Source: an uncultured Ignisphaera sp. (GTDB taxonomy: Archaea; Thermoproteota; Thermoprotei_A; Sulfolobales; Ignisphaeraceae). From it: a stretch of 64,000 bases of DNA. The notes under the pieces are model-generated. The model had not been told where the DNA came from and did no database searches. It saw only the letters and a list, made by a program, of their open reading frames with translations. The stretch spans positions 124,001 through 188,000 of the forward strand of contig CALJEI010000001.1 of assembly GCA_938074605.1 (NCBI GenBank), given 5' to 3'. Below are positions 8,501-39,534 of this stretch, one piece after another. The first letter of the stretch is position 1. The number at the start of each line of letters is the position of its first letter. Position numbers and translations under genes: made by a program.

Positions 8501-9222
8501 CAATAAGACCTACTGCTCCATATACCTCTGATGAGATTATAGAAATGGCTATGAGGGGTGAAATGGGTATTATTGTGAATATGGGTAGAGAGCATATCAG
8601 ACTCTATGACCTTATATTTAGACGCTTTATAGCAAGTCAAATGAGCTATGCCAAAATTATATATGTGAGGGCTACCCTTAGAGTAGATAGATATAGCATT
8701 GATATAGAGGTGCCAGTGGATATTATAGAGGAGGGGTTCACCAAAGTATATAGAGTAATATATTTATTCCCCCAGTTAAAGGAATTGCTAAGTATAGGAA
8801 GTATAAAACCCTCTTCTATTTCTATATCTAAAGGCTCTAATAAGGGGCTATATAGAGTTTCAGATCTGATTAGACTACTTAAAGAGCATGGTATAGGGAG
8901 ACCCAGTACCTATGCAAAAGCTATTGATAATAATATTAGACATGGCTATATAATTCTAAGTAAAAAGAGAAAGATAGCTATACCCACCAAACTTGGAATT
9001 GATGTGTCAAACATAATACGGGAACATTTTGAAAATATTGTAGGGGTTAATGCTACAAGAGATCTTGAAAAGCTTATAGACTACGTTGAAGAAGGGAGAC
9101 TGGTTATTTATGAAGCTCTTGACCGCATTAAGAGTGCTATTGATACCATACAAACAATGTTTGATACCAAGCCCCTAATAAGTTTAAACATTAATATAGA
9201 TTTAGCGTTGACCACATCATAG
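5548..9222 (+). CDS. rgy: Reverse gyrase
   Basis: ATP-dependent topoisomerase that introduces positive supercoils, the hallmark enzyme of hyperthermophiles. The 1224-residue protein is a single-chain fusion. The helicase half has a zinc finger (C14, C17, C31, C34), Walker A APTGIGKST (91-99), DDLD (202-205), an SATG motif and QASGRASR. The topoisomerase IA half begins near residue 614, with TOPRIM E618, a second zinc finger (C696, C699, C710, C713), D743/D745/E747 and the active-site tyrosine Y939 in LITYHRTDSTR. All catalytic residues are present, so the enzyme should be active. It converges with the second alba gene, 22 bp apart. Confidence 0.98.
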   Translation: MGNSIMIVAYRHGCPVCGGYITNDELVIGRCGRCSYSLGSGDVGEQLLQILAKEVEDFGSFFTLATGFKPLPIQIYWIKRLFFGDSFALIAPTGIGKSTLLAIYALYRAYFYGNKVYIVTPTREIAKQFYGKICDYVKNMLQYGYDVSRIKIVFYDSTAKNISEVKDVVKSGTFDILITSAAFLSRHHSIIIDKKIDIVIADDLDSILKNSRNVDRLLRLLGFSDSVIEKSVKLVKLKQSLIAAKASRKPEVVEELKNAITDLEAEIRNEISKRAAQLVVASATGRVRGLKSLVLRELLGFDAGAMFEYWRNIADLYSEIDSNTYMKILKIVKDVGSGIIFYSNMYKEYIDELCRKFENNGIRFAIAKSGNKAVDKFRRGDIDVVIGPASYYGILVRGLDEPLRIRFTIFIGVPQIVRDLYDSLNNIRFMYIILRKLEELGIDLNNLRNQLIEIIQKSTPALLILYSKLLKNPMDTPQGLINNLSVLQAIKERLYNEVAKIVSEKGKLVIENYCIVVKYGGKLIVVKPDPYTYIQASGRASRLLNGYKTFGLSIIFEKHRELINILEYRLKHLVNFSGFKELDLKSIKEYISRIVESRSRGSDSDIRSGISTTLIIVESPTKAKTIASMFGRPAKRIFNDIIVYESIIPVDVNKVYIAMVMATLGHIVDLITDEGLHGVKVEQGKYIPVYDFITRCRNCGHQHIGIYDSCPYCSSLNIFVSSSIYNILKKLALEVDKILIATDPDTEGEKIAYDVKMLLTPYNKNIYRIEFREVTRGALLEALKNCRDINIKRVEAQITRRIADRWIGFEVSMWLQNHFNKPWLGAGRVQTPILLWNVDRYKEYREKLGYVIRFDISGYRGRLYLGNDINRDYVEKIMSILSEKGFKIESASMHEKVISPPPPYTTDTLLSDASNFLGFTASKTMALAQTLFEMGLITYHRTDSTRISSIGIAVAREALNKMGMAQQFTPRTWDGDTRGENAHEAIRPTAPYTSDEIIEMAMRGEMGIIVNMGREHIRLYDLIFRRFIASQMSYAKIIYVRATLRVDRYSIDIEVPVDIIEEGFTKVYRVIYLFPQLKELLSIGSIKPSSISISKGSNKGLYRVSDLIRLLKEHGIGRPSTYAKAIDNNIRHGYIILSKKRKIAIPTKLGIDVSNIIREHFENIVGVNATRDLEKLIDYVEEGRLVIYEALDRIKSAIDTIQTMFDTKPLISLNINIDLALTTS

Positions 9223-20148: not shown

Positions 20149-20522
20149 ATAATCACCTTAAACCTACCCCCCTTATGATTTTCATTTAAAAACTCCACTA
20201 TATGCATAACTCTACCTCCTACACTTTTCACCTTCTCAGCAGCTTGCTTTGAGAATGCCATAGCAACTATAGTAACTCTATGGTCTATAGAGCCTGCTCC
20301 CAAGACCTTACCGGGGACTATAATTATATCGCCATCCTTTGAATATCTGTTTATCTTACTTATATTAACTGCTATTCTTTTCCTTCTTGGCTTTTCAAGA
20401 AGTTCTGCTACATACCTCCATATTCGAGCATTATTATTTCTAGACGCCTTCCTCAGTATTCTAATGCTCTTTCTCCAGATGTAATTTGTAGGCCCAGTAC
20501 GCCTCATCTCTATCCACTCCAC
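20145..20522 (-). CDS. rpl18e: Ribosomal protein L18e (eL18)
   Basis: Archaeal/eukaryotic large-subunit protein of 125 residues. VNISKINRYSKDGDIIIVPGKVLGAG-type sequence and the VTIVAMAFSKQAAEK motif identify it. The gene overlaps the end of rpo3 by 13 bp. Confidence 0.95.
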   Translation of the reverse strand: MEWIEMRRTGPTNYIWRKSIRILRKASRNNNARIWRYVAELLEKPRRKRIAVNISKINRYSKDGDIIIVPGKVLGAGSIDHRVTIVAMAFSKQAAEKVKSVGGRVMHIVEFLNENHKGGRFKVII

Positions 20523-21352
20523 TGCATAATTAATTTAGAAATTGTTTTAAGTTCATTTAAAAGAATTTCAATAGATTTGCGTACTATGGTTTCTGGATTT
20601 AGCGAGCCACTACTCTCTATCCTAACTATATTTTTATCTTCATCAATTGCTATATCTATTGCTTTTAATGGACATGAGTATACGCACTGCCAACATATTA
20701 TACAGTTATATAGGTTATCGATAGTAAGCCTCCCTCCATCTATCTTTAAAACCTTCTTTGGACACACTTCAATACACTTTCCACATAGATTACATAGAGA
20801 ATTGTTTATTGATATATTTGGTACATGTCTAACAATAGCTACAGTAGCTGGACTCCATTTAGCGTGTTCAAGACCTCTACCTATTCTTGCCCTAAGCTCT
20901 AAGGAAATCTTTTGACCAGGTGCCAGAATGACTATAGGTATGTTATCATGTACTGGTCTAACATATGGATCCTCAGACTTTATGTTACTTGAATATATAG
21001 TTACTTCACTATTACTTGCCTCAGCCTCTAGTAACATATGGATATAACATTTCTCACAAATTTCTGCAGGAGGTTTTTCTTCTGATTCACTACACTTGCT
21101 ACATACTTCAAGATCTACATCCCCCAATTTATTTAGAGAATCTTCACTTGTTAGAGGAATCATACCGAGTCTATGTGCCAGAATTTCATCAAACATAGCT
21201 GATGTATTCACAATAACCATAACTTCGTCAATAGCATATGTTGGTACCTTAGCTAGAGAGTATCTCCGTATAACATTTAGTAAAGGTAGAGGGATGCCTT
21301 CCACTAAAAACTCTATTCTTTCATTATCCAATTTAAGTAGAGTTAATTCCAT
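20510..21352 (-). CDS. rpo3: RNA polymerase subunit Rpo3 (RpoD) with two Fe-S cluster motifs
   Basis: Alpha-like RNA polymerase subunit of 280 residues that dimerises with Rpo11 for enzyme assembly. The N-terminal alpha-type domain has PLPLLNVIRRYSLAKVPTYAIDEV. Inserted after it is a ferredoxin-like domain with two complete cysteine sets: C187, C190, C193, C197 and C217, C220, C223, C227, so two [4Fe-4S] clusters can be predicted. A further CxxC pair (C84/C87 with C99/C102) may bind zinc. Some archaeal Rpo3 proteins keep one or no cluster, so the full set is worth noting. Confidence 0.95.
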   Translation of the reverse strand: MELTLLKLDNERIEFLVEGIPLPLLNVIRRYSLAKVPTYAIDEVMVIVNTSAMFDEILAHRLGMIPLTSEDSLNKLGDVDLEVCSKCSESEEKPPAEICEKCYIHMLLEAEASNSEVTIYSSNIKSEDPYVRPVHDNIPIVILAPGQKISLELRARIGRGLEHAKWSPATVAIVRHVPNISINNSLCNLCGKCIEVCPKKVLKIDGGRLTIDNLYNCIICWQCVYSCPLKAIDIAIDEDKNIVRIESSGSLNPETIVRKSIEILLNELKTISKLIMQWSG

Positions 21353-22913: not shown

Positions 22914-23123
22914 TTAGGAACCATGTTCTTGTTCTTGAACCCATTTTGAATACTTTTCTATTACACCATATATTCCTAAAACAAGGCCAATTATAGATAT
23001 AGTGTATACTATAATTAGTAGAATTAAATTGGGTTCTAGTATCCTTATAACCATTAGAAAGGGTATCAGAAATGCTATGAATAAAAGCGTTCCACCAATA
23101 GTAATATACGGCATCCTACCCAT
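22914..23123 (-). CDS. Small two-helix membrane protein at the end of the ABC transporter operon
   Basis: I do not recognise this 69-residue protein. Two hydrophobic segments (about residues 7-28 and 32-53) are followed by a short charged tail, YSKWVQEQEH. Its ATG overlaps the end of the ABC ATPase gene by 8 bp, so it is translated from the same mRNA as the transporter. It might be an accessory subunit, but no function is shown by sequence. Confidence 0.7.
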   Translation of the reverse strand: MGRMPYITIGGTLLFIAFLIPFLMVIRILEPNLILLIIVYTISIIGLVLGIYGVIEKYSKWVQEQEHGS

Positions 23124-24114
23124 ATAGCCAGCACTTTACGGTATGTGTTCCATCAACTTCTATTACAGGGGGCTCTTCTCTTCTACAAATATCCATTGCA
23201 TAAGGACATCTAGGATGAAACCTACAGCCAGGAGGAGGATTCAATAAACTAGGAGGCTCACCTGGAGGTATCTCTCTAAATAAGGTTCTGTTCCTTGGAT
23301 CAGGATCTGGTATTGCTTTTATTAATGATTGTGTGTAGGGGTGTAGTGGTTTAGATAATACTTTATATGTTTGTGCCATTTCTACTATATGCCCTGCATA
23401 CATAACTGCAATCTTATCTGAGAAGTATTTTGTAGTTGAAAGATCATGGGTTATATACATTATACTTAAGTTATATTTCTTTTGAAGTTCTCGAAATAGT
23501 GTAAGTATTTCTATTCTAACAGAGGCATCAAGCATAGATACAGGCTCATCAGCTACAATCAATTTAGGTCTTAAGATTAGAGCTCTAGCAATTACAACAC
23601 GCTGCTGCTGTCCTCCACTTAACATATGGGGATATTTATTTATAAAATCTTCTACTGGTATCAGTTTTACTTCTTCAAGAACTTCCCGTACCTTGTATAT
23701 TCTTTCACTTTTCTTTATCCCATGTATAATTAAGGGTTCTTCAAGTATCTGCCTAATATTCATAAATGGTGGTAGTGCTCCATAGGGATCCTGCTGAACG
23801 TAGCCTAATTCTCTCCTATACCACTTAATTTCCTTTCCTTTAATAAATGTTATATCCTTACCATCATATATGATTCTTCCTTTTGTAGGTTGATGGATCT
23901 TTAGTATAGTTTTACCAAGTGTTGTCTTACCTGAACCACTTTCACCAACGATTGCAAGAATTCTGCCTCTTTCCAAATCGAAGCTAACATCATCTAATGC
24001 TCTTATATATCCTGATACTGTTAAGAATTTTCTTATAGGATGCCATACACAGAGCTTTCTAACACATAAAAGATCACTAGGATTACATGACTTAATGTCT
24101 TCACCCTTTTGCAT
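23116..24114 (-). CDS. Opp/Dpp-type ABC transporter ATP-binding protein (DppF/OppF-like)
   Basis: Cytoplasmic ATPase of 332 residues powering uptake of an oligosaccharide or peptide. Walker A GESGSGKTTL, signature LSGGQQQRV and Walker B LIVADEPVSMLD are intact. The C-terminal extension with RFHPRCPYAMDIC is the oligopeptide/dipeptide transporter domain with cysteines that bind an Fe-S cluster in some homologues. A 104-bp stretch of this extension is identical to the next ATPase gene (see repeat entries). It overlaps that gene by 14 bp. Confidence 0.93.
   Translation of the reverse strand: MQKGEDIKSCNPSDLLCVRKLCVWHPIRKFLTVSGYIRALDDVSFDLERGRILAIVGESGSGKTTLGKTILKIHQPTKGRIIYDGKDITFIKGKEIKWYRRELGYVQQDPYGALPPFMNIRQILEEPLIIHGIKKSERIYKVREVLEEVKLIPVEDFINKYPHMLSGGQQQRVVIARALILRPKLIVADEPVSMLDASVRIEILTLFRELQKKYNLSIMYITHDLSTTKYFSDKIAVMYAGHIVEMAQTYKVLSKPLHPYTQSLIKAIPDPDPRNRTLFREIPPGEPPSLLNPPPGCRFHPRCPYAMDICRREEPPVIEVDGTHTVKCWLYG
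23163..23266 (-). repeat. 104-bp direct repeat, copy 1 (inside the second ATPase gene)
   Basis: Bases 23163-23266 are identical, base for base, to 24154-24257. The flanking bases differ on both sides. The repeat encodes the same stretch (PGEPPSLLNPPPGC through the DICRREEPPV end) in both ATPases. Confidence 0.95.
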
Positions 24115-25066
24115 ATAGCCAACACCTTACATAGCTATTTCTTTCTATATATGTTACAGGGGGCTCTTCTCTTCTACAAATATCCATTGCATAAGGACAT
24201 CTAGGATGAAACCTACAGCCAGGAGGAGGATTCAATAAACTAGGAGGCTCACCTGGAATAAATCTAACATTCCTATCTTCTCTAAGAGTTGGCACACTAG
24301 AAAGTAGTAGTTGTGAATATGGGTGCTGAGGCTCTCTATAGAATTTTTCTGCATAGCTATACTCAACTATTTGACCTGCATACATAACTGCAACCTTATC
24401 TGAAATTTCACTTGATAAAGCAATGTCATGTGTTATAAATACGTAGCTGATCTTTCTATCAGTTTTTATTTTCTTTAGCAAGTTCATGATATTTGCCTGT
24501 GTAAGAACATCCAATGCAGATGTAGGTTCATCTAATATAACTATAGAGGGCTGGGTTATTAAGGCCATTGCTATAACTACTCTCTGCTTCATACCTCCAG
24601 ATAACTCAAACGGATATCTATCTATAAACTCCTGTGATATCCCAACAAATTTTAGCATTTCTTTAGCTTTATCTAAAGCTTCATTCTTACTCATATTTTT
24701 GTGAATTATTAAAGGCTCAGCCAGCTGCTCACCTATCTTTATCACTGGATTCAATGCATTCATTGAGGCTTGAGGAACAATTGATACTTTGTTCCATCTA
24801 ATTCTACTATTAAACTCATCATCGCTAAGCTTCATCACATCTTCCCCATCTATATATATGTTTCCCTCAAATCTATGGACATTTTTAGGAAGTAGCCGTA
24901 GTAATGCCCTTGCAAGTGAACTTTTACCACTACCTGACTCACCAATAACAGATAATGATTCATTACCATATAGGTCGAGGAATACACCATCGACGGCTTT
25001 AACCAGACCTGCCCTAACCCTATAGTAGAGATACAGTTCCTTAATACTAAGTGCTACCTCCACCAA
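24101..25066 (-). CDS. Opp/Dpp-type ABC transporter ATP-binding protein (DppD/OppD-like)
   Basis: Second ATPase of the transporter, 321 residues. Walker A GESGSGKSSL, signature LSGGMKQRV and Walker B IVILDEPTSALD are intact, and the C-terminal oligopeptide-transporter extension with two conserved cysteines is present. It starts 1 bp after the permease gene. It and the neighbouring ATPase would form the heterodimeric motor of one importer. Confidence 0.93.
   Translation of the reverse strand: MVEVALSIKELYLYYRVRAGLVKAVDGVFLDLYGNESLSVIGESGSGKSSLARALLRLLPKNVHRFEGNIYIDGEDVMKLSDDEFNSRIRWNKVSIVPQASMNALNPVIKIGEQLAEPLIIHKNMSKNEALDKAKEMLKFVGISQEFIDRYPFELSGGMKQRVVIAMALITQPSIVILDEPTSALDVLTQANIMNLLKKIKTDRKISYVFITHDIALSSEISDKVAVMYAGQIVEYSYAEKFYREPQHPYSQLLLSSVPTLREDRNVRFIPGEPPSLLNPPPGCRFHPRCPYAMDICRREEPPVTYIERNSYVRCWLYAKG
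24154..24257 (-). repeat. 104-bp direct repeat, copy 2 (inside the first ATPase gene)
   Basis: Exact copy of 23163-23266, 991 bp away, in the corresponding region of the paralogous ATPase. Synonymous sites are identical too, unlike the rest of the two genes, which points to recent gene conversion. Confidence 0.95.
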
Positions 25067-25067
25067 T

Positions 25068-26477
25068 TTACATCTCCCTTAACCTAGGATTGAATATTTT
25101 ATCTAGTGCAAGTCCCAGCATGGCAAATCCTAATGCTGTAAGTAATAGTAGTAGTGATGGCTGTAGAATCCAGTAGTAGTAGCCTTTATAAAGTGCTGCT
25201 TCTCTTGCTGCATCCTCTAATACTCTACCCCATGTGACAGCCTGTGGGTCACCTACACCAAGTAATGCTAGTGCCGCCTCTAAAAATACAAAATCAGGTA
25301 CTGAAAGAACTATTGTAGGTATTATTGTAGGTAGTATTTTCGGTATCATATACCTGAAAACAATTCTAAAGCTACTAGTACCATAAGCTATAGCAGCCTC
25401 TATATACGGTATTTCTTTTATTTGAAGGAATATTGCTCGATAATTCTTTACACCTGATCCAAAAATACTTAAAAGTATGACCACTCCCAATAGCATCCAT
25501 ATTGTTATCTTGTAAAGGTATGATATCATTAGCAGTATTGGTAAGAATGGTAACACCATAAATATTTCAGTAACTCTCTGAACAATAAAATCAAAGCCTC
25601 TTCCATACCAAGCACTTATAGCTGCAATAAACATTTGGGCAAAGGTTATGGTTACTGATGCTACTAGGCCAAAGGCTAACGCTATTGGTGTTCCCCATAT
25701 GAGTGCTAAAGCTAAATCACGTCTTCTATGATCAGTACCTGCAGCTCCATACACCTTTCCATATACTACTAACTTAGCATCTATCTGAACTCTATTCAAA
25801 TCTTCTTCTCCTATTAACACATCTATTATAGTTCTATACTCACCTTTAGACACTTCAACAGTATTTCGATTAAGTATAGATGAATCCTCTTTAGCAAATA
25901 GTGCTATATCGACACTAACATCGTAGTTAGGTCGTGAACCTAACCTATTTATAAGGTTTGTATAAAACCTTTTAAGAAATTCTTCGTCACTTGAGATGTA
26001 GTATGCTTCATATCCTCTTAGCACTCTTCTACCTATTACATATTCTATTTCACCAGGCTTTATCCATGTTATCTGAACTGTGAATTGTTTGGTGGTATTT
26101 GAATATAGTCTTAGAATTATTTCATTTGGAAAGTCATCATATATATAGCTGAATGTGAATAGAAGCCTTAAAATATACTTCCCACTTGAAACAGGAATTA
26201 TAGTCTTATTTACATTTAAATCTATTCTTCGGCTATCTAGAACTATGGTTTCAGGAAGCTTTCTATGGGAGAAGATATTTACCCAACTGGGCATTGCATT
26301 CTTGGGTAAATCCTCCCAAGGCTCGATTGAATTCCACTTCCTTACAACTTCTCCATATGGTACTGTAATTATTGCGTATAGTGATAATATAATCAGAGAG
26401 GTTATTATTATAATGCCAATCAGAGCTGATTTATACATCAAAAGTTCTCTGAATAATGCTTTTACTCGTCTCATCAT
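25068..26477 (-). CDS. ABC transporter permease, DppC/OppC type with a large external insertion
   Basis: Membrane permease of 469 residues, longer than the usual 280-320. A first helix (about residues 18-39) is followed by roughly 210 hydrophilic residues rich in beta-strand patterns, then the family's GTDHRRRDLA motif and five helices with the EAA-type loop (EAAIAYGTSSFRIVFRYMIP). The insertion should lie outside the cell and could help capture substrate, since no separate binding protein is encoded nearby. It overlaps the partner permease by 4 bp. Confidence 0.9.
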   Translation of the reverse strand: MMRRVKALFRELLMYKSALIGIIIITSLIILSLYAIITVPYGEVVRKWNSIEPWEDLPKNAMPSWVNIFSHRKLPETIVLDSRRIDLNVNKTIIPVSSGKYILRLLFTFSYIYDDFPNEIILRLYSNTTKQFTVQITWIKPGEIEYVIGRRVLRGYEAYYISSDEEFLKRFYTNLINRLGSRPNYDVSVDIALFAKEDSSILNRNTVEVSKGEYRTIIDVLIGEEDLNRVQIDAKLVVYGKVYGAAGTDHRRRDLALALIWGTPIALAFGLVASVTITFAQMFIAAISAWYGRGFDFIVQRVTEIFMVLPFLPILLMISYLYKITIWMLLGVVILLSIFGSGVKNYRAIFLQIKEIPYIEAAIAYGTSSFRIVFRYMIPKILPTIIPTIVLSVPDFVFLEAALALLGVGDPQAVTWGRVLEDAAREAALYKGYYYWILQPSLLLLLTALGFAMLGLALDKIFNPRLREM

Positions 26478-27565
26478 GTACTTACACCTCCTATCTTAAT
26501 CCTAGGGTCTATCAATACATATATTATGTCTAGTAAAAGTACTGTAATTGCAAGTAGATATGCATAGATTGTTACTATACCTATGAGGACTGGCGAATCA
26601 TTGTTTGCTATAGCCATCCATATCAGTGTACCTATACCCGGCCAGTTGAATATGTTTTCAGTAATTATAGCTCCCATCCATGATGAGATTAATAGCAGTG
26701 CTAATTGTGTAACTATTGGTGGTAGTGTTGGTCTGAGTATGTATCTCCTTTCTATTTCTCTAGCTGGTACTCCTTTTGCTTTCGCTAATTCTACATAATC
26801 TTCAGATGAGAACATGAGGAAGAATGTTCTCATGGAATATGTATTTATTGAAAAGTATGCTATAAACCATGACATCATAGGAAGTATCATGTGTTTTAAC
26901 ACACTTAATGCATAAAGTAGAGGATGTTCTGGAGGTGGAGCATCTACAAGCCCACCATAGGGCAGTATCCCAAGCCATGACGCGAAAATCATTATTAAGA
27001 AGAGTCCATAGAACCAGCCTGGCATAGAGGATAGAGGAGAAAGCATTACTATAATTCTATCGATCTTACTTCCATATCGTCTAGAAAGGTATAGCCCTGT
27101 AGCTAGACTTGAGAAGAATAGCATAATCTGTATAGTGGTGAATAAAAGTATTGAAGCAGGAAGTCTTTCAAGTACTATAATTCTTACTTGTTTAGAGCCA
27201 CTTGCACTTGTTATCCTAATAGCTCTTCCAAGATTTAGTGTTAGTGCATCTATAAGATAATTAAAGCTTCTATATATGAATGGTTTATCGAGACCTACCC
27301 TCTTTATCTCTAATTCAATTACTTCCCGTGCTATCGACTCAATAACACTTTTATTTAGACCTCTATATGCAGGGTTATTTCTAATTGCTTCATACACACT
27401 AAATTGAATTTCACTTTTTATTATTTCATCAACAAATCCCCCCATATTAGCAATGATGATAACAATATATATTGCTATAATGGTAGTCGCTAAAATTGCT
27501 ATACCTCTAACCAAAAGATATTTTCCTAATCTTTTTAAAGTAGCATATTTAGTTGCTGCTACCAT
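26474..27565 (-). CDS. ABC transporter permease, DppB/OppB type
   Basis: Membrane permease of 363 residues and first gene of the operon. It has an N-terminal helix, an extracytoplasmic segment of about 70 residues and five further helices, with the EAA loop ELAKAKGVPAREIERRYILRPTLPP. AGGGTAAG lies 8 nt before the ATG. The neighbouring GH20 gene on the other strand suggests the imported substrate is an amino-sugar oligosaccharide, although these families are often named for peptides. Confidence 0.92.
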   Translation of the reverse strand: MVAATKYATLKRLGKYLLVRGIAILATTIIAIYIVIIIANMGGFVDEIIKSEIQFSVYEAIRNNPAYRGLNKSVIESIAREVIELEIKRVGLDKPFIYRSFNYLIDALTLNLGRAIRITSASGSKQVRIIVLERLPASILLFTTIQIMLFFSSLATGLYLSRRYGSKIDRIIVMLSPLSSMPGWFYGLFLIMIFASWLGILPYGGLVDAPPPEHPLLYALSVLKHMILPMMSWFIAYFSINTYSMRTFFLMFSSEDYVELAKAKGVPAREIERRYILRPTLPPIVTQLALLLISSWMGAIITENIFNWPGIGTLIWMAIANNDSPVLIGIVTIYAYLLAITVLLLDIIYVLIDPRIKIGGVST

Positions 27566-27610
27566 AAAAACATCTTACCCTAACACATTATTGTATGTTA
27601 CTTAGATTAG

Positions 27611-27625
27611 CTTTATATAATAAAG
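27611..27625 (-). promoter_or_regulatory. Likely TATA box for the ABC transporter operon
   Basis: CTTTATTATATAAAG on the minus strand is a near-palindromic TATA element about 50 nt before the permease ATG. It predicts a leader of about 25 nt containing AGGGTAAG. Confidence 0.5.
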
Positions 27626-28233
27626 AGAAGGTTTAAAAATATTCTTAATTAAATGTGATTTAGTCTTCAAATTAAAGCATCTTATAATCTATAGTCACTG
27701 TTTATATGCATCTAGCTATAATCATGGAAAGATTATAGCTTGTTTAATTAATTAAGTTATGACTGATGCAATTATATATTAAAATTCATTTTCACTATCT
27801 ATCTTATAGAGATGATAATATCTAGCATAATTTAATACGCTTCATATTATAATTAAAAAGTGTGGTTTTAGGGTACATCATGTTAAACAGATATGTATAT
27901 ACAATGGTAGAACTGTTGTTGTGCCGCTAGAAAGAGTAGGGCAAAACCAGCTCTAAGAAAATAGCTGGGTAGACAGATACTATTACAAACCTAGTCCTTA
28001 AGAACAGGACATTATCACCAAAATTACACAAAAAGAAACGCGTTTGTCTACTAGAGAAATAGAGGGTTGATTAACGTAAATACTGGCAGCAGTTATCATT
28101 GTTGTCAATGTAAGTACAAATGAGGTATCATTAGACGCTAGCCAGTGGTTGTAAGAGATCCAGATATATATTTGAAGAGTGGGGAAAATAGTGCATAGTA
28201 GATCTGGGGGTATGAATTCAAAAAGCTCCATCT

Positions 28234-28247
28234 AAATTTATTATATA
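28234..28247 (+). promoter_or_regulatory. Likely TATA box for the GH20 gene
   Basis: AAATTTATTATATA ends about 30 nt before the first ATG of the GH20 gene, giving a start site near 28267 and a very short leader. Confidence 0.5.
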
Positions 28248-28277
28248 CCCAAATTAAGAGTATCGTCCTGGTGATAT

Positions 28278-29969
28278 ATGATGCATCAAAATAGTATCCA
28301 TATAGTTCCTGAGCCCAAAATTATTGAATTTACAGGTAAGTGGTTTACGTTCAATGGGTTTTCTAACTTTCCTGAATTTCTAGTAAAGGAGTTTAATATT
28401 CCTATAGGTGATTGGGAGATAGTCAAGACCGTGGGCGAGGGTGATGCTGGTATAGAGATAGGGAAAGGTATCGTGAGAATATGGGGTGATGAAAAAATCG
28501 CTTATGCTACTATAATTCAATTACTTCTACAGAATAGATCATACCTACCAGAGGTTAAAATTGTTGAAACATTTAAATTTAATTTCAGAGGGTTTCATCT
28601 AGATGTAGCTCGAGGTGGGGTTCCTACAGTAGCTACGCTAAAGAGAATTCTACGATGGCTCTTTCTATTAAAATATAACTACTTTGCCATATATTTAGAG
28701 GATCTATTTCCATGGAAGGCCTATCCAGATATAGGCTTTTCTAGAGGTAGATACAATGAAGAAGAGTTAAGGGAGGTCATTGACTATGGTGCAAGACTTG
28801 GTATTGAAGTTTTTCCATCACTTGAATTATGTGGCCACATGGAAAATATATTAGTCTTACCACAATTTCATAGATTTAGCGAATGGCATAATCCTAGGGA
28901 AGGGGTATTGAATGTAGGTGATGAAGAAGCAAGGAAATTTGCCTACAGCTTACTTGAAGAAGTAGTAGAGTTCTTTCCAAGTAGGTATATCCATATTGGG
29001 GGCGACGAAACATGGGCACTAGGTAGAGGTAGGAGTCTCGACAAAACACTAAAATTTAATGGCCCTGAGCTCTATGAAATTCACCACTACAACATGATTA
29101 AAATTGTAAAATCTAGAAGCAAGATACCGATGATATGGGGCGATATGATTGCTGCTGCATATCTTAGAGAGAGTGAAAGAGAAATATGGAAAAAGCTTTT
29201 AGATAGCCCAATATGGAGGGAGGTAGTAGTAGTTAATTGGGACTATTCACCAAGTACAAGAGAATATTTTAGAAAAAAGATAAGGCTATTTAAAGAAAAA
29301 GGCCTTAACCAAATTATTGCTCCTGGCCTCTGGAACTGGAATAGATACTATCCAGACTTTCCTACAGCACTTGAAAATCTAAGGAATTTCTTAGGAGCAG
29401 CAAGAGATGAAGGTATTAATGGTTTTTTGATAACCGCATGGGGTGATGATGGTTCAGAGTGTCTCTTCTCATTTCTAGACCCACTGATGCTAGCAGCAAT
29501 AGAATATGCAGAAGGTAGTGGTAACTGGGAAGATAAATGGATGAGTCTAACAGGTGAAGAGCCTAAAGTGGTAAAAGTTAGAAAGCTATTTGGTGAGGTT
29601 GATACTGTTATATCAAAATGGGATGTTAGATGGGGGATATGGCTTCCTAAGCACATTCTACTAAAAACAGAAATCTCAAAATTGCTTACCAGATATATAT
29701 CTAAGGATGAGATTATCAATCTAAGAAATTATATTAAAGAGGTACTAGAATATGTAGAGGATGTAGTACTTCCAGAAGATCTTAGCTTTATCAAAAACTT
29801 TCTTAAAGCATCATTAAAATCTATTGATGGAACCATAAAGGTTTCAGACTACATAGCATTATCTAAAGAATACTCTAATCTGTGGCTTAAAGAAAGAAAA
29901 ATTGAAGGACTTGAAAATATTGTAGGCAGATTTTGGAGAGCTGCAGGAATACATGATCTTCTACACTAA
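28278..29969 (+). CDS. Glycoside hydrolase family 20-like beta-N-acetylhexosaminidase
   Basis: Predicted to remove terminal beta-linked N-acetylhexosamine using substrate-assisted catalysis. The 563-residue protein has a small N-terminal alpha/beta domain and a TIM barrel. The barrel contains FRGFHLDVARGG near residue 97, PSLELCGHME, and the hallmark HIGGDETW, where D243 and E244 match the catalytic Asp-Glu pair; TAWGDDGSE is late in the barrel. No signal peptide is visible, so it is likely intracellular and acts after import. It is divergent from the ABC operon. GH20 is uncommon in hyperthermophilic archaea. Confidence 0.85.
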   Translation: MMHQNSIHIVPEPKIIEFTGKWFTFNGFSNFPEFLVKEFNIPIGDWEIVKTVGEGDAGIEIGKGIVRIWGDEKIAYATIIQLLLQNRSYLPEVKIVETFKFNFRGFHLDVARGGVPTVATLKRILRWLFLLKYNYFAIYLEDLFPWKAYPDIGFSRGRYNEEELREVIDYGARLGIEVFPSLELCGHMENILVLPQFHRFSEWHNPREGVLNVGDEEARKFAYSLLEEVVEFFPSRYIHIGGDETWALGRGRSLDKTLKFNGPELYEIHHYNMIKIVKSRSKIPMIWGDMIAAAYLRESEREIWKKLLDSPIWREVVVVNWDYSPSTREYFRKKIRLFKEKGLNQIIAPGLWNWNRYYPDFPTALENLRNFLGAARDEGINGFLITAWGDDGSECLFSFLDPLMLAAIEYAEGSGNWEDKWMSLTGEEPKVVKVRKLFGEVDTVISKWDVRWGIWLPKHILLKTEISKLLTRYISKDEIINLRNYIKEVLEYVEDVVLPEDLSFIKNFLKASLKSIDGTIKVSDYIALSKEYSNLWLKERKIEGLENIVGRFWRAAGIHDLLH

Positions 29970-30427
29970 AATAATTCAAAATCCAATTCATAGTCAAGGT
30001 AATTCAGCATTTAGATTTTCTCACTTAAATTTCTCATTATTGTCATAGGGGTATCCAGAGTATCTTAAGGGGATTGGGGTTAAATTTAATATGTTTATAG
30101 CGATTTTTATTATTTCACTATTTTCTTTTCTATACTATTTTTATTATGTCTCAAATTAAACTTTTAATGTCTCTATACTATAAGTCTTTAAAAGAATTCT
30201 CTACTTAGAATTCTATAAAAATTCTCTATTGAATACAAAGCTTTATAGTGGAGATGGTGGGTAAAATCCCCTAACAGCAAAGAGACACCAATCGCTATAA
30301 ACATGAACATAAAACAACTATATTAGTAGACCTCTAAAGACATTAGTATATATGGATTTTGTAGCATAGTTCTATTGAACACATACTTTTATTTAAGACA
30401 GCTACAAAGGTTAATGGGTTTTTAGAC
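29970..30427. other. 458-bp intergenic region, no gene seen
   Basis: Strongly AT-rich, with many stops in all frames. Apart from the putative TATA box for the next gene at 30386-30397, I find no RNA gene, repeat or open frame worth naming. Confidence 0.5.
30386..30397 (+). promoter_or_regulatory. Likely TATA box for the Gfo/Idh pair
   Basis: CTTTTATTTAAG lies about 31-42 nt before the ATG at 30428, giving a start site close to the start codon. Confidence 0.45.
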
Positions 30428-31543
30428 ATGCCTAAGATTAGTATAGCATTCGTAGGTTTAGGAGGTATAGCTTCACAAGCTCATTTACCAGCTATAAAAG
30501 AACTGGGATTTAATGTTGATTTTTGTGTTGATGTTGATGAATATAAGGTCAAATCTTTTGTTGAAAAAACAGGGTGTAAGGGCTATATTAACTATAAAGA
30601 GATGCTGAGAAATGAAAATCCTGATGTTGTGCTTATTGCCACCCCAAATGCCTTTCATGCCACGATAGCTATAGACGCTCTTAAGAATGGTGCCCATGTC
30701 TATATCGAAAAACCTATGGCTACAAATAGTGAAGAAGCTTTGAAGATAGTTGAAACCACATATAGTGTTGATAGATTTGCCGTTGTAGGACATAATGGCC
30801 GATTTGACTATAGAGCCTCTACTGCTGCTAAGCTTATTCATAGAGGTGGTATAGGGAAGATATATTATGCAAGGGGGTTTATACTTAGACAGCGTGGAAT
30901 ACCTCCAGCTTCTACATTTATAAAGAAGGAGTTTGCAAAAGGTGGTGCTGTATATGATATTGCTTCACATGCCATAGATATGCTTCTTTACCTATCTGGA
31001 TATCCAAAGCCTGTAAGTATTAAGGGATATACAAATAGAGTTTTTGGTGATAGGCTAGAAGAATTTGGTATGAACTATCCACAGCCACCCCAACAAGGTA
31101 TGGTATCTGAGGTGGAGGACTTTGGCTCAGCCTATATCTCCTTTGAAGATGGTATTGCCATGTATGTTGAGGTTAGCTGGGCTTCATATATAAAAGAAAA
31201 TAGGGTGGAATATACTGTTCTTGGTAATAGAGGTGGTATACAGATTGACAATACCGGTTTGAGTTATATGACTTCAATTGAAAGAGAATTCTTTATAGCC
31301 TCACCACCAACATTACCGCAGGTTAGTACCCATAGGGAAGTCTGGAGGAGATTTTTAAAAGCTATTGAAAATAATGACAGAGCTCTTCTCTGTCCGATAA
31401 CGACAGTAGAACAGGGTGCAATTGATGTTGCTATTCTTACTAGTATTTATGAGTCTTCATTAAGTGGTAAAGAAGTTAAAATAGATGTTCCAGATAAGCT
31501 AATTGATTGTGCTAAAGAACAGCTTAAGTGTTTAAGGCTGTAG
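30428..31543 (+). CDS. Gfo/Idh/MocA family oxidoreductase (first of three)
   Basis: NAD(P)-dependent sugar dehydrogenase-like protein of 371 residues. The N-terminal Rossmann fold has GLGGIASQAHLPAI (dinucleotide loop) and the EKPMAT motif whose lysine is usually catalytic near residue 97. The C-terminal alpha/beta domain supplies the substrate site, with SHAIDMLLYLSG carrying a conserved His. It overlaps no gene but is followed after 11 bp by a paralogue, probably in one operon. The substrate is unknown; the GH20 and transporter nearby suggest an amino sugar or its derivative. Confidence 0.88.
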   Translation: MPKISIAFVGLGGIASQAHLPAIKELGFNVDFCVDVDEYKVKSFVEKTGCKGYINYKEMLRNENPDVVLIATPNAFHATIAIDALKNGAHVYIEKPMATNSEEALKIVETTYSVDRFAVVGHNGRFDYRASTAAKLIHRGGIGKIYYARGFILRQRGIPPASTFIKKEFAKGGAVYDIASHAIDMLLYLSGYPKPVSIKGYTNRVFGDRLEEFGMNYPQPPQQGMVSEVEDFGSAYISFEDGIAMYVEVSWASYIKENRVEYTVLGNRGGIQIDNTGLSYMTSIEREFFIASPPTLPQVSTHREVWRRFLKAIENNDRALLCPITTVEQGAIDVAILTSIYESSLSGKEVKIDVPDKLIDCAKEQLKCLRL

Positions 31544-31554
31544 GGAGGCAGTTT

Positions 31555-32637
31555 ATGAGTGGTAATATAGTTAAGTATGCAATTATTGGTGTTGGAGGAC
31601 ATGGTTTAAATAGGCATTTAATTCCACTACTTAGTGTTCCAAATGTTAAGTTAGTTGCTGTTGCTGATATAAATAAGTCTAGATGTGAGGAAGTTGCCTC
31701 TAAATATAGTACAAAGTGCTATACAGACTACATGGATATGATTAATAGGGAGGAGATAGATGCTGCAAGTATTGTTACCCCTACAGGTCTGCATGCAAGT
31801 ATTGCTATAGATGTGTTAAAGAGTGGTATACACGTCCTCGTTGACAAACCTCTTGGGGCAAATTTAAATGAGGTGGTTGATGTTGTTAAAATTGCTAAAA
31901 AGATGAATAGAAAGATCATGGTTGGATACTGGAGTAGATTCTCTCCAGCACTACAGTATGCTGTTGAAATCTATAGAAAGGGTCTCCTTGGCGAGCCCTA
32001 CTACGCCTATGGATATCTTATTAGAAGGAGAGGTATACCAGGATCACCAACATTTATCGATAAAACTCTATCAGGTGGTAGAGGTGCTCTTCTCGATATA
32101 GGATGCTACATAATTGATAATCTTCTTACAGTAACAGGCTATAGAAGACCACTATCTGTCGCTGGTGCGGCTTATACCAAATTTGGTAATGTAGTTGATG
32201 AAATTAAATTTAATTGGGGTACTTGGGATCCATCAAAATTTGAATTAGAAGATTTTGCTACCGGTTTTATAAGATTTGAAGGTGGCCTAACTATGGTATT
32301 TGAGGTTGCATGGGCTGCAAATATATCGCATGTAGGTGAAGTTGGCTATATGAAGGTTCTTGGTGATAGGGGTGGTATTGAAGCTAAAGGTGATGAAGCC
32401 ATGAAGGACATTTCATTCCATAGTAGATCAGAGAACTTTCTATACGATACAAAGCCTATTTTAAAATCCACTAATATGGCTCTTGAAATGGTTAAATCAT
32501 TCATATATAGTATTATTGAAGATAGAGAACCTCCTATAACGGGGTACCAGAGTATTATACTCCATTCAATAATAGACGCTGTATACAATTCTTCGAGTAT
32601 AGGTGAAGAGGTAAAAATAGTTTTACCTGAAATATAG
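31555..32637 (+). CDS. Gfo/Idh/MocA family oxidoreductase (second of three)
   Basis: A paralogue of the upstream gene with about 360 residues. GVGGHGLNRHLIPLL is the dinucleotide loop, DKPLGA carries the catalytic-type lysine, and GGRGALLDIGCYIIDNLL matches the substrate-domain helix. GGGAGG at 31543-31548, 6 nt before ATG 31555, fixes the start there rather than at an in-frame codon overlapping the previous gene. In place of the usual His in SH-x-ID, the sequence reads GCYIID, so substrate or mechanism may differ from its partner. Confidence 0.87.
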   Translation: MSGNIVKYAIIGVGGHGLNRHLIPLLSVPNVKLVAVADINKSRCEEVASKYSTKCYTDYMDMINREEIDAASIVTPTGLHASIAIDVLKSGIHVLVDKPLGANLNEVVDVVKIAKKMNRKIMVGYWSRFSPALQYAVEIYRKGLLGEPYYAYGYLIRRRGIPGSPTFIDKTLSGGRGALLDIGCYIIDNLLTVTGYRRPLSVAGAAYTKFGNVVDEIKFNWGTWDPSKFELEDFATGFIRFEGGLTMVFEVAWAANISHVGEVGYMKVLGDRGGIEAKGDEAMKDISFHSRSENFLYDTKPILKSTNMALEMVKSFIYSIIEDREPPITGYQSIILHSIIDAVYNSSSIGEEVKIVLPEI

Positions 32638-32663
32638 CATTTTTAATTATTGTTAGAGATATC

Positions 32664-33887
32664 TCAATCTTTTCTCCTTGCATAAGGCGGTATATAGCTT
32701 TCTACCTGACTGGGGTCAAATTTTATTTTAGCTCCTTTTTCTGCAGAGAGATAAGCATGCATCATTAGCTGGACAACTAGGTATCCATCGTACCAATTCT
32801 CAATAGGGGTTTTTCCTGCTAGAAATGATTCTACCATGTGTTTATCTTCAGCATGATAGCCGTACGTTATAGCTTCATCTGGTATTATTGGCATTAATCC
32901 TTGTTCTGCATTCTGTTTTTCTATGAATTCTTCAGATGGTGGAATCTTTATATTTCTGCTAATAAATGTGAAGAGTTCTGGCTGTAGTGTATTTATATAG
33001 AGGCTGTATTCAGGGCCTAGTACCTCAAATGATAGTCTTAGACCTGCTCCTACAAACGACCATGATGTTCTGGTTTCTGTCACTATTATATTGCCTTCAT
33101 CATCCTCGTATGTTACTATAGCTAGTGCGTAATCCTCAGCTGGTTCTTTTGAAAAGTCTATTCCAAAGCGTTTTTTAAGATCCTCAACATATTCTTTTCT
33201 AAGCCACTTCAAGATAGCAGTTTCTCCATATATGTATTTCGGCTTTATGCTATCCTTACCTTTCTTAGGGTCGTAAAGTATATATCTTGCAGCTTCTAGA
33301 CTGTGGCACATCATATCTAAAAGTACACCTCCGCCTGATATGGATGGCTTCCAGAACCATATATTATGAGGACCTGCATGTTCTTCTGCAGCTCTTGCTA
33401 GATATGGTCTTCCAGAATATCTTGCACCTATACCCCATACAACTTCCTTACCTCTTGTAATAGAGGGCATAAAAACTTGATTCTCTAGATATCCATGCAG
33501 AAGACCTGATTTCTCAATAGCGTCCAACATCTCTTTAGCCTCCTTAACGTTTCTAGCAAGAGGTTTCTCAACAACAACACCTACTAGATTGCCTTTACCC
33601 TGCTTAGCTTCTTCAGCAACATATTTAGCATACGTTACATGGGTATCGTTTGGAGTCAAAATCCATACGGCATTCACCTTAGGATCTCGTAGTAAATCCC
33701 ATACATCGCTATATACTTTAGGTCTACCTAAACCAAGTTGTTCAGAGTAAAATGCAGCCTCCTTTGCTCTTTCATATGTTCTAGAGTATATAGCAACTAC
33801 ATCAATATTTCTAATATTTGCAAATGCTCTTAGATGAAATTTTGCAACAAATCCCACCCCCAGTATTCCTACACCTAACCTCTCCAT
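32664..33887 (-). CDS. Gfo/Idh/MocA family oxidoreductase (third, longer)
   Basis: A 407-residue member of the same superfamily on the opposite strand, convergent with the previous gene. GVGFVAKFHLRAF is the dinucleotide loop, EKPLARNVKEAKEM the catalytic-lysine motif, and GGGVLLDMMCHSLEAARYIL the substrate helix, which retains the His. GGGTGA about 8 nt before the ATG is a good ribosome-binding site, and TTTTAAATTGG at 33919-33929 may be its TATA box. The long C-terminal domain indicates a different substrate range from the other two. Confidence 0.87.
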   Translation of the reverse strand: MERLGVGILGVGFVAKFHLRAFANIRNIDVVAIYSRTYERAKEAAFYSEQLGLGRPKVYSDVWDLLRDPKVNAVWILTPNDTHVTYAKYVAEEAKQGKGNLVGVVVEKPLARNVKEAKEMLDAIEKSGLLHGYLENQVFMPSITRGKEVVWGIGARYSGRPYLARAAEEHAGPHNIWFWKPSISGGGVLLDMMCHSLEAARYILYDPKKGKDSIKPKYIYGETAILKWLRKEYVEDLKKRFGIDFSKEPAEDYALAIVTYEDDEGNIIVTETRTSWSFVGAGLRLSFEVLGPEYSLYINTLQPELFTFISRNIKIPPSEEFIEKQNAEQGLMPIIPDEAITYGYHAEDKHMVESFLAGKTPIENWYDGYLVVQLMMHAYLSAEKGAKIKFDPSQVESYIPPYARRKD

Positions 33888-34445
33888 ACTGTTTCACCCA
33901 GTAGATGATACTGTATTTATCCAATTTAAAAGTATTATAAAATAATTAGTGTCTATATCTATAGAATTCATGGATATCGCTCTATATATTTTACTTATAC
34001 TTTTAAAGACCTCCATCTAAATATATTGTTCTAAGAAGCTTGGTTATTTTTTAATGCTTTGCTGAAAGAAGTCTATATAAGCTTTATAAACATTAGCAAC
34101 AGGAAGTTAGGTACTGGCTAAAGGTTTTAATGGTAGAGTAGCTACTCTAAACCACCTAAAGCTTTCTGTAGATGAAAGCTTTATTGCCACTGAGCTGCTA
34201 ACCGTTGTCTATAAATCTATGTAAATAGACTTGAAGTATAGATAGTGCAGAAATTAAATGCAGCCAAAGATAATCGAGAAGAGATAGAAATCTAGAGACA
34301 GTTCAACAATACCTATCACCCAGATGCTTTAAACAAAATACGAACGACATACAGTTCTATCTATTACTAGAGAATTTTGAAAGCTAGTTTAAATCCTCAA
34401 AATATAAAATACTTTTGTATCCTTAGATTAATTGGTGTGAATTAT
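33888..34445. other. 558-bp intergenic region, no gene seen
   Basis: AT-rich, with stops in every frame. One half of a C/D-like motif (AGATGA and CTGA, 34170-34195) is present but lacks a second box pair. An in-frame codon at 34377 extends the following kinase upstream, but the extra residues have no similarity to the family. Confidence 0.45.
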
Positions 34446-35402
34446 ATGTCTTTTGATGTAATATCACTTGGCGAATTACTTGTAGAATTTGTTCGAAAAG
34501 AAAGAGATGTAATGCATACTGTGCCTGGAGAGTATATTGGTCCTTTTCCAAGTGGTGCTCCTGCAATAACAATTGATACTTGTGCTCGCTTAGGTCTAAG
34601 AACAGGCTTTATTGGTGTTGTTGGTGATGATGATTTTGGTCAGATGCTTTTAGAGAGGTTTAGAGGTGATGGTGTTGATATTTCAAGGATTAGAATTGAC
34701 AAAGATTCCATAACTGGTATGGCTTTTGTGGCATATAGATCCGATGGTAGTAGGAGATTTGTATTTAATTTAAAATACTCTGCCTCTGCAAAACTATCGC
34801 CAGAAGATGTTGATCTAGAGTATATAGCTAGAGCTAAGCTCCTCCACATTTCTGGGTCAACTCTATATATAAGCAGCTCTACTAAAAATGCATGCAAAAA
34901 AGCTGTCACATTAGCTAAGGCTAGTGGTACTATAGTTTCTCTTGACCCTAACATCAGACTTGAACTTGCATCCATTGATGAAATTAAAGAGATGCTCCAC
35001 CCAATACTTATAAATACCGATATTTTGCTTATTGGTGAAGATGAGCTTATATCAATTACGGGTATTACCAATATTAATGAAGCTGCCTATAGGGCACTTG
35101 ATCTAGGCCCTAAACTAATTGTTGTTAAGAGGGGGCGAAGAGGCTCTATAGCACTAACAAGCAATGGAATAATTATTGAAGCCCGGGCATTTCCTGTAGG
35201 TGAAGTAGATCCCACTGGGGCTGGAGATGTATTTAATGCAGCCTTCATATATGGTTATTTGAATGGTTGGAATTTAGAGAAAATCCTCATTTTTGCAAAT
35301 GCTGCTGCAGCAATCAAGGTTGGTAGAAGGGGGCCTATGGAAGGCCCAAAATCATATGAGGAAGTAGCATCGCTAATTCTAGAAAAGAATATCCACTTCT
35401 AA
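34446..35402 (+). CDS. PfkB family sugar kinase
   Basis: ATP-dependent carbohydrate kinase of about 318 residues. It starts with VISLGELLVEF (PfkB N-terminal motif), has PSGAPAITIDTCARLGL and IGVVGDDDFG, and ends with DPTGAGDVFNAAF, whose aspartate is the catalytic base. The closest known types are 2-keto-3-deoxygluconate, fructose or ribose kinases; specificity cannot be decided. I chose ATG 34446 because homologues begin here. It may phosphorylate a product of the adjacent dehydrogenases. Confidence 0.88.
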   Translation: MSFDVISLGELLVEFVRKERDVMHTVPGEYIGPFPSGAPAITIDTCARLGLRTGFIGVVGDDDFGQMLLERFRGDGVDISRIRIDKDSITGMAFVAYRSDGSRRFVFNLKYSASAKLSPEDVDLEYIARAKLLHISGSTLYISSSTKNACKKAVTLAKASGTIVSLDPNIRLELASIDEIKEMLHPILINTDILLIGEDELISITGITNINEAAYRALDLGPKLIVVKRGRRGSIALTSNGIIIEARAFPVGEVDPTGAGDVFNAAFIYGYLNGWNLEKILIFANAAAAIKVGRRGPMEGPKSYEEVASLILEKNIHF

Positions 35403-37437: not shown

Positions 37438-39534
37438 GTGCCTAGAAGAATTGTATGGCCTAAGGTAAAGAAGATCTACTGGTGTTTATATTGTAATGTG
37501 CCACTTCTACAACCAGATTGTCCAATTTGTGGCTCTAGGTGTAGGAGAATACCTCTTTCAGATCCTGGTGATGCGAGACTTGCTTTTGAAAAAGATATTC
37601 AGAATATGTATATTGGATATCTATATGAGTTTGGTACTGATAAAGGTTTTAATTCATTAATAGGAAGATCCATTGTATTGCTAAATAAAGCTCCCTACTT
37701 CGATGAAATGAAGGAGGTATATGTGGATGGCATACAGATAGGAAGGCTTTACTTTGATCCATTTCTTAGGAAATGGCGCTTCCGATTATCGAAAGTAGGT
37801 GCCATGAGAATTCTCTCAATAGATCCAGATATTGTTGAAAAAGCCATTATAGATAAAAGACGCTGTCTACCAATGGATAAAATTAGAATAGATAAGAATA
37901 TTGCGCCATATAAGCAGGTGTTATTAGTAAGACCATCAGGTAAAATTACAGGACTCGGATATTCAGTTGGTAATAATAGGGTGATTGTATATAGCTGGTG
38001 GAATGGAGATTATGTAGAATCAGAAAAAGAATACTCTGAACCTAGTAAGAGATCTTCTTTAGAGGATGTGTTAAAGGCGCATGAAGAGTATATGAATATC
38101 ATTGAGTCTAAGGCAAAGAAATTCATCTCAGTAATGTATGAAAAAATATCAAGGCCATTAATAGCCTCATTTAGTGGGGGTAAAGATAGTCTAGTCTCAT
38201 TACATCTAGCCCTATCCCTTAGTTTAGAGCCGAAAATACTATTCAATAATACAGGAATAGAGCTTCCAGAGACCATAGATACAGTCTATAGAACTATTGA
38301 GAGATATGGTCTGAAGCTCATAGAAGCTTCAGCTAATGATGTATTTTGGAGGGCTGTATATAGCCTTGGGATACCTGGAAGAGACTATAGATGGTGTTGT
38401 AAAACATGTAAGCTTACTCCACTACATAGAGTAGCCAATAAGTTATGGAAAACCGGTGCACTAAATATTGTTGGTCAGAGAGCACTTGAATCAATAGATA
38501 GAGCACGTAGCCCTAGGATATGGAGACTTCGATGGGCTCCACAACTACTTAATATATCGCCCATAAATGAATGGTCCCAGCTAGAGGTATGGCTATATAT
38601 ATTCAGACACAGACTTTCACCAAACCCTCTCTATTTTACAGGATTTGAAAGAATAGGATGTTTTATGTGTCCAGCATCAACATTAGCTGAACTAGAACTT
38701 GTATCTAAAACACACTTAGATCTATGGAGCAGGTGGCTAGAAGTTTTAACGTATTGGGCTAATAGGCTAGATAAACCAAGGGAGTGGATAGACTATGGAT
38801 TATGGCGGTGGAATGCTCCTGCAAGATATCGAACAATGATTGCTAAGAGACTTAGTATAGTAGATAGAATAGATAACTGGAGAGATACATTCAGTAGAAT
38901 GTCACCAATAGGAATTGCAGAGCCACTGTGGGCAGAGTCATATGTAGAGATAACATTTGATAGATCTCTAGATCTAGCCTTTCTGATAGAGCAGATACCT
39001 ATAATTTGCCCCAAGAGCTACTCCATAGAGGATGGAAAAGCCAGTATATACTGGAATTCATGTTCTGTACACATAAATGTTAATAAAATTGTATTTAGCT
39101 ATCAAAATAAGAATGATGTAGAGAAACTAGTTGACATACTAAAACTCTTTTTTAGATGGCATCTCTGTACAGGCTGTAGATCTTGTGAAACTAACTGTAT
39201 AAGTGGAGCACTTAAGGTAATAGAAAGAAGTGAAGGCACTAATTTATATAGACCTATAGTTCTAAGTAAAACAAAGTGTCTAAGCTGTAGACTCTGTATA
39301 TACAACTGTCCAATTGCTGATGTATATGTAGAACACGTAATAACACCACTAATATTTAGTGACTATGAGGCTTGGCGTAGAAAAACTAGGGAACATCACA
39401 ATGAAATACTAGAAAAGCTAAAGAAGTTTATAGTAGCAGGCTCTGGTAACAGCTTGACAACTTATAAACATAAGAAAGGAGAAGTCAGCTCCGAGAAATA
39501 CGTCGATACATCTCAATTCTTTACAATACCGTGA
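37438..39534 (+). CDS. PAPS reductase-like PP-loop protein fused to zinc ribbon and ferredoxin domains
   Basis: A 698-residue multidomain protein. An N-terminal zinc ribbon (C16, C19, C28, C31) and a PUA-like region precede a PP-loop ATP pyrophosphatase/PAPS reductase domain with SFSGGKDS (244-251) and cysteine pairs in RWCCKTCK and GCFMCP. The C-terminus is a ferredoxin domain with two [4Fe-4S] sets (C577/C580/C583/C587 and C614/C617/C620/C624). PAPS-reductase-like proteins of this build occur in archaea; they may reduce sulfur compounds or thiolate RNA, but the substrate is not established. It starts at GTG. Confidence 0.85.
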   Translation: MPRRIVWPKVKKIYWCLYCNVPLLQPDCPICGSRCRRIPLSDPGDARLAFEKDIQNMYIGYLYEFGTDKGFNSLIGRSIVLLNKAPYFDEMKEVYVDGIQIGRLYFDPFLRKWRFRLSKVGAMRILSIDPDIVEKAIIDKRRCLPMDKIRIDKNIAPYKQVLLVRPSGKITGLGYSVGNNRVIVYSWWNGDYVESEKEYSEPSKRSSLEDVLKAHEEYMNIIESKAKKFISVMYEKISRPLIASFSGGKDSLVSLHLALSLSLEPKILFNNTGIELPETIDTVYRTIERYGLKLIEASANDVFWRAVYSLGIPGRDYRWCCKTCKLTPLHRVANKLWKTGALNIVGQRALESIDRARSPRIWRLRWAPQLLNISPINEWSQLEVWLYIFRHRLSPNPLYFTGFERIGCFMCPASTLAELELVSKTHLDLWSRWLEVLTYWANRLDKPREWIDYGLWRWNAPARYRTMIAKRLSIVDRIDNWRDTFSRMSPIGIAEPLWAESYVEITFDRSLDLAFLIEQIPIICPKSYSIEDGKASIYWNSCSVHINVNKIVFSYQNKNDVEKLVDILKLFFRWHLCTGCRSCETNCISGALKVIERSEGTNLYRPIVLSKTKCLSCRLCIYNCPIADVYVEHVITPLIFSDYEAWRRKTREHHNEILEKLKKFIVAGSGNSLTTYKHKKGEVSSEKYVDTSQFFTIP

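Follow-up and report, generated by a model that had tools for sequence, protein, structure and literature searches.

A probable composite island for sugar catabolism, with a GH20 hexosaminidase and DgpA-like dehydrogenases, in an Ignisphaera genome

A stretch of 64,000 nucleotides from a hyperthermophilic Ignisphaera (bases 124001-188000 of contig 1, hereafter the window) carries, next to one another, the four genes of an ATP-binding cassette (ABC) importer, a glycoside hydrolase of family 20 (GH20), three Gfo/Idh dehydrogenases (GfoA, GfoB and GfoC) and a PfkB-family sugar kinase. With a probability of about 0.6, we read this stretch as a composite sugar-catabolism island, in which a module of GH20 and the N-acetylglucosamine (GlcNAc)-6-phosphate deacetylase NagA lies beside a separate, co-inherited set of Gfo and PfkB genes. 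The initial annotation had joined the nine genes into a single amino-sugar pathway. All nine gene calls were right, each being an intact open reading frame at its assigned place with Pfam domains above cut-off; the single pathway gave way to the composite reading because the occurrence of GH20 does not track that of the Gfo/PfkB set (Fisher p = 0.55) and the two are unlinked in five genomes (G007, G006, G001, G003 and G009). These comparisons cover 11 genomes of the genus, related to each other and partly draft; G000 is the window's own genome, and G001, G003, G006, G007, G008, G009 and so on are the others.

From gene content, folds, catalytic residues, linkage and co-occurrence, we infer the substrates and the direction of each step as follows. 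The GH20 enzyme, of the intracellular GcnA/GH20C type, would remove terminal beta-linked GlcNAc or N-acetylgalactosamine (GalNAc) from oligosaccharides, and NagA, encoded elsewhere in the genome, would act as its partner by deacetylating N-acetylhexosamine (HexNAc)-6-phosphate. The second set would comprise the three Gfo proteins and PfkB together with an AtOGE-like enzyme, a NagK-like kinase, a GlmS/GlmD-like isomerase or deaminase with a SIS domain and a GatZ-like aldolase or epimerase. GfoA and GfoB would probably catalyze the C3 oxidation of a glycoside, the reduction of the 3-keto sugar that arises after elimination, or both, and the kinase, SIS, PfkB and GatZ proteins would lead from an amino-sugar-6-phosphate through a ketose-6-phosphate and a ketose bisphosphate to trioses, resembling the bacterial route. 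The importer may supply glycosides, with a binding protein from elsewhere.

The GH20 enzyme and its association with NagA

The GH20 gene (28278..29969, forward strand) is predicted to encode a GcnA/GH20C-type exo-beta-N-acetylhexosaminidase. Its catalytic domain matches PF00728 at 80 bits (2e-22; curated cut-off 22.3), and the best solved relatives in a sequence search of the PDB are GcnA of Streptococcus gordonii and GH20C of S. pneumoniae (1e-24 to 1e-22). An AlphaFold2 model with a mean predicted local distance difference test (pLDDT) score of 89.7 matches these two enzymes over its full length, including the C-terminal domain, and Foldseek ranks 1-21 are all GcnA or GH20C, with template-modelling (TM) scores of 0.70-0.78. 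The Ignisphaera protein shares with them the catalytic Asp-Glu pair (D243-E244) and the want of an obvious signal peptide, as judged by reading the sequence; it differs in its low identity (~18-19% in the structure alignment), in its place in an archaeal and thermophile clade and in its partner genes. The other active-site residues are R112, H187, W287, W321, Y323 and W388, and D243, E244, H187, W287, W321, Y323 and W388 are invariant across 25 sequences. Judging from its sequence and model, the enzyme probably releases amino sugars from sugar chains, and its amino-sugar role is well supported.

Relatives that are 47-80% identical are found in Ignisphaera, Bathyarchaeota, Brockarchaeota, Thermofilaceae, Dictyoglomus, Thermotogae and others. 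A single origin of the Ignisphaera GH20 found no support in a poorly rooted tree with long branches, where the G009 copy clusters with one from Thermofilaceae (99/99). GH20 had been called rare in hyperthermophilic archaea, and a Pfam search of Thermoproteota qualifies this: the gene is uncommon but not very rare, being present in 45 of 379 genomes and 22 of 155 genera. A literature search pairing Ignisphaera with hexosaminidase found nothing.

The nagA gene (TIGR00221 above cut-off) adjoins GH20 in G009, is one gene away from it in G003, and in a Dictyoglomus contig stands next to it with 2 bp between them (again above cut-off); in the window genome, NagA proteins above the same cut-off are encoded at C9:5186 and C1:5. 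Elsewhere in the genus GH20 adjoins GH31 (G001 and G008) or TldD/PmbA genes (G006 and G007). Short GH20 matches with an internal stop codon occur in G005 (C2:187285-187434, locus L019) and G002 (C120:28269-28499, locus L018). Both sit where relatives carry GH20 or its GH31 neighbor and are likely GH20 remnants, which suggests ongoing loss of the gene in some members of the genus. Nine of the 11 genomes encode nagA, and it is exactly these that carry GH20 or a remnant of it, so that presence and absence agree in all 11 (Fisher p = 0.018, uncorrected for relatedness or for the counting of remnants). The complete active site, the GcnA/GH20C fold and the linkage and co-occurrence with nagA thus uphold the use of amino sugars that was first proposed, as distinct from the union of nine genes into one pathway.

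DgpA-like dehydrogenases and a candidate eliminase

All three Gfo/Idh proteins have a PF01408 domain and C-terminal domains. GfoA (30428..31543, forward) has an EKP motif with K95 and a DIASH motif with D177 and H181; GfoB (31528..32637, forward, with ATG 31555 as its likely start from the sequence) has K107 and a DIGCY motif, in which Tyr194 replaces His. GfoC (32664..33887, reverse), which is convergent with GfoB, has an EKP motif with K108 and retains D191 and H195; it has no specific match, and 10 of the order's 117 genomes carry orthologues. For GfoA and GfoB, the best PDB matches by sequence are DgpA and DgpA1 (E 1e-37 to 1e-47), ~15 to 25 orders of magnitude ahead of the next enzymes. 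The GfoB AlphaFold2 model (pLDDT 92.3) has only DgpA1 and DgpA at Foldseek ranks 1-15. Compared with these enzymes of the gut C-glycoside pathway, GfoB keeps the RRRGIP and WDP-FE-ED stretches, the EKP/DKP lysine is kept and GfoA retains the DxxxH motif; identity of GfoB is 26-30%.

The DgpA of a gut bacterium oxidizes C- and O-glucosides at C3 (PMC11239390). As DgpA, a glycoside 3-dehydrogenase, is their closest relative, GfoA and GfoB probably make or reduce 3-keto sugars, and from their sequences, and for GfoB also its model, they look like glycoside 3-dehydrogenases rather than the amino-sugar oxidases that the initial annotation had proposed. Identities as levoglucosan, inositol, UDP-GlcNAc 3- or xylose dehydrogenases were considered for the Gfo proteins, and all score far below cut-off; a GH109 reading was rejected as well, its PDB match being weak and the EKP/DKP lysine motif being intact. 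Searching by locus tag for Sulfolobus genes that might be orthologous to the Gfo genes returned nothing useful. GfoB orthologues elsewhere adjoin either a complete operon for a solute-binding protein (SBP) and OppBCDF together with GH1, or GH38/GH31. In six genomes of the genus g99 (loci L162-L167), orthologues with 60-63% identity occupy one end of a conserved SBP-OppBC-OppDF run, and GH1 the other.

What might perform the elimination that follows oxidation at C3? An AP_endonuc_2 protein, whose gene in G007 is linked to GfoA, has 8BVK, the Agrobacterium enzyme AtOGE, as its best PDB match. AtOGE is a Mn2+ beta-eliminase acting on 3-keto-O-glucosides (PMC10628242). By position, its site residues E39, H66, H132, H134 and D163 correspond, at an offset of exactly +2, to E41, H68, H134, H136 and D165 of the Ignisphaera protein, and H189 and E233 are matched further on by H194 and E243; all seven Ignisphaera residues are invariant. 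In the window genome this protein is encoded on another contig than the window's (C6:186252-187043). A possible, still tentative extension of the composite reading is that an archaeal 3-keto route, built on oxidation by DgpA-like enzymes and beta-elimination by an AtOGE-like one, breaks glycosides, perhaps those of HexNAc, that the kinase, SIS, PfkB and GatZ proteins lead to trioses, and that hydrolysis by GH20 and NagA runs alongside.

Several observations weigh against the composite reading or its details. GfoB has Tyr at the position of the His of DgpA's DxxxH motif, and DxxxY is found in all its close orthologues. The AtOGE residues were paired by the position numbers of the paper rather than by sequence alignment, AtOGE E161 is Gln in the AP_endonuc_2 protein, and metal sites of this kind are also known from related isomerases and dehydratases, with IolE as the best NCBIfam match (92 bits). 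No Gfo, PfkB, SIS, GatZ or NagK-like protein reaches any NCBIfam equivalog cut-off. The adjacency of GH20 and Gfo genes in two genomes could be functional, and the p-values, coming from 11 related and partly draft genomes of one genus, are not independent tests.

The PfkB kinase and its partner genes

The PfkB gene (34377..35402, forward; the likely start is 34446, from reading the sequence and its aligned range) matches PF00294 at 8e-53 and has a GAGD motif at 281-284. Its nearest NCBIfam model is tagatose kinase (NF049991; 300.5 bits, under the curated cut-off of 420), and in the PDB a putative ribokinase is best, followed by 2-keto-3-deoxygluconate kinases. GfoC, PfkB, the AP_endonuc_2 protein and the SIS protein, at >=49% identity, are found in exactly the same five of 11 genomes (G000, G001, G004, G007 and G008; p = 0.0022 for each pair, uncorrected), and GatZ-like genes are present in four of these five. 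In G007 the order SIS, GatZ, BadF, PfkB, AP_endonuc_2, GfoA, GfoB, GfoC is held within ~12 kb, without GH20, and an SBP and Opp ATPases come after this run. PfkB, GatZ, SIS and BadF stand together in G008, and BadF, GatZ and SIS lie on contig 7 in the window genome. In G001, a rhamnosidase gene with Bac_rhamnosid domains and a sulfatase gene with an SGSH_C domain stand just ahead of the PfkB orthologue (L101:2524-9162).

The BadF-fold, NagK-like kinase matches hexokinase 2e2n and the N-acetylmuramic acid/GlcNAc kinase 8zo3 in the PDB. The SIS protein resembles the GlmS isomerase domain and GlmD, with NCBIfam scores below the cut-offs (GlmS 152 against 418, GlmD 99 against 580 and AgaS 61 against 529 bits), and the GatZ-like protein matches weakly, over the N-terminal part of the model only. 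Since the partners of PfkB in relatives are NagK-like, GlmS/GlmD-like and GatZ-like, a phosphorylation step tied to amino sugars is plausible. Amino-sugar-type enzymes thus stand in both sets, and the broad amino-sugar idea survives, with the oxidation better read as 3-keto-sugar chemistry. A fructoselysine (Frl) operon, which also pairs SIS, AP_endonuc_2 and PfkB proteins, was considered and set aside (FrlB 40 bits, FrlD 67 bits), and searching the literature for tagatose-6-phosphate 4-epimerase together with tagatose kinase yielded no paper.

These partners could also be taken for an inositol-type catabolic set, with Gfo as IolG, AP_endonuc_2 as IolE or IolI, PfkB as IolC and the GatZ-like, fructose-bisphosphate aldolase-like protein as IolJ. 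The IolE match of the AP_endonuc_2 protein and weak IolG matches of the Gfo proteins point that way, but every score falls far short of its cut-off, PfkB is much nearer tagatose kinase (300 bits) than IolC (173 bits) and the SIS and NagK-like members are foreign to inositol catabolism, which makes this explanation very improbable.

The composite reading also resembles known amino-sugar pathways. As in the bacterial Aga/Kba (GalNAc) or Nag (GlcNAc) pathways, the genome has NagK-like, NagA, SIS deaminase-like, tagatose-kinase-like PfkB and GatZ/KbaZ-like genes; unlike in those systems, no phosphotransferase system was seen in the regions read, the genes are dispersed and, compared with Aga/Kba, the SIS protein is nearer GlmS/GlmD than AgaS and the GatZ match is partial. 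The thermococcal chitin pathway uses diacetylchitobiose deacetylase, GlmA and GlmD. Ignisphaera shares with it a SIS-type protein resembling a glucosamine-6-phosphate deaminase, whereas GH20 and NagA would release and deacetylate HexNAc.

The importer and the layout of the island

The importer is of the Opp/Dpp type and has the two permeases and two ATPases of that set, all on the reverse strand: a DppB-like permease as the first gene of the operon (26474..27565; PF00528, 5e-29), a DppC-like permease with a long N-terminal extension (25068..26477; PF00528 at residues 283-467), a DppD-like ATPase (24101..25066; PF00005, 2e-26, and PF08352, 8e-20) and a DppF-like ATPase that it overlaps (23116..24114; PF00005, 8e-35, and PF08352, 8e-22). 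Their G008 counterparts are 91, 84, 88 and 87% identical, respectively, with DppF in the same place. No solute-binding protein gene stands beside the importer in the window genome cluster or in G008, so import by this adjacent transporter is only putative. The window genome has 11 SBP_bac_5 matches, all on other contigs. Among the binding proteins inspected, the sole one without an adjacent importer lies at ~10.4-12.9 kb of C2, adjoining raffinose-synthase-like (PF05691) and GH1 genes, and only by elimination does it become a candidate partner.

From an AT-rich gap of 712 bp (27566..28277; 30% G+C) without a binding-protein gene, the importer genes are read to the left and GH20 to the right; the sister genome G008 carries a GH31 gene at this place. 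No remnant of GH31 or of a binding protein was found in the gap by tblastn or blastn; a TnpB remnant was also considered, and as its matches are just 13-residue scraps (best E = 0.001) it is not claimed. GH20 is followed, after 458 bp, by GfoA and GfoB, and PfkB runs rightward beyond GfoC. In the 458 bp, 35 bp upstream of GfoA (30358..30392, forward) are 91% conserved in G008 and are likely a promoter region separate from GH20. Only two genomes have GH20 beside the importer and Gfo genes, so this arrangement was probably put together recently. At 35.6-38.6% G+C, the island genes are unremarkable against the window as a whole (35.3%).

Could the nine genes nonetheless form one pathway, in which HexNAc oligosaccharides are imported, cleaved by GH20, oxidized by the Gfo enzymes and phosphorylated by PfkB? 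The genes are adjacent in the window and, up to GfoC where its contig ends, in G008; the PfkB partners are of amino-sugar type, and the nearest NCBIfam model of GfoB is an archaeal UDP-GlcNAc 3-dehydrogenase, though far below its cut-off. Against this stand the separation of GH20 from the other genes in five other genomes of the genus and its failure to co-occur with the Gfo/PfkB set, the GH31 gene between importer and GH20 in G008 and the G007 cluster, where the Gfo set has an importer of its own and no GH20 beside it, and we consider one pathway unlikely. A chance neighborhood, in which importer, GH20, the Gfo pair, GfoC and PfkB act on unrelated sugars with no common substrate, appears quite improbable: the adjacency is conserved in only two close genomes and PfkB is split from its GatZ, SIS and BadF partners in the window genome, but all are sugar genes, the co-occurrence of GfoC, PfkB, the eliminase-like protein and SIS is exact, and Gfo, PfkB and partner genes are tightly clustered in G007.

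The host genome (1.63 Mb, 97.8% complete) has Ignisphaera sp. SKYB63 as its nearest named relative, and a helicase-plus-topoisomerase gene of reverse-gyrase type at 5548-9222 of the window is in keeping with a hyperthermophile. Elsewhere in the window, a 4Fe-4S ferredoxin-like sequence is fused to a PAPS-reductase domain (37438-39534), and an Rpb3/RpoA-like RNA polymerase subunit has a 4Fe-4S ferredoxin-like insert (20510-21352).

The enzyme types of the composite island are already known, and it is their archaeal combination that is predicted from the genes. If the reading is true, hyperthermophilic archaea would have a hexosaminidase branch built on GH20 and NagA, unlike the thermococcal chitobiose route, and the co-inherited set would suggest that archaea too have a 3-keto-glycoside route, one that the literature consulted describes only in bacteria.

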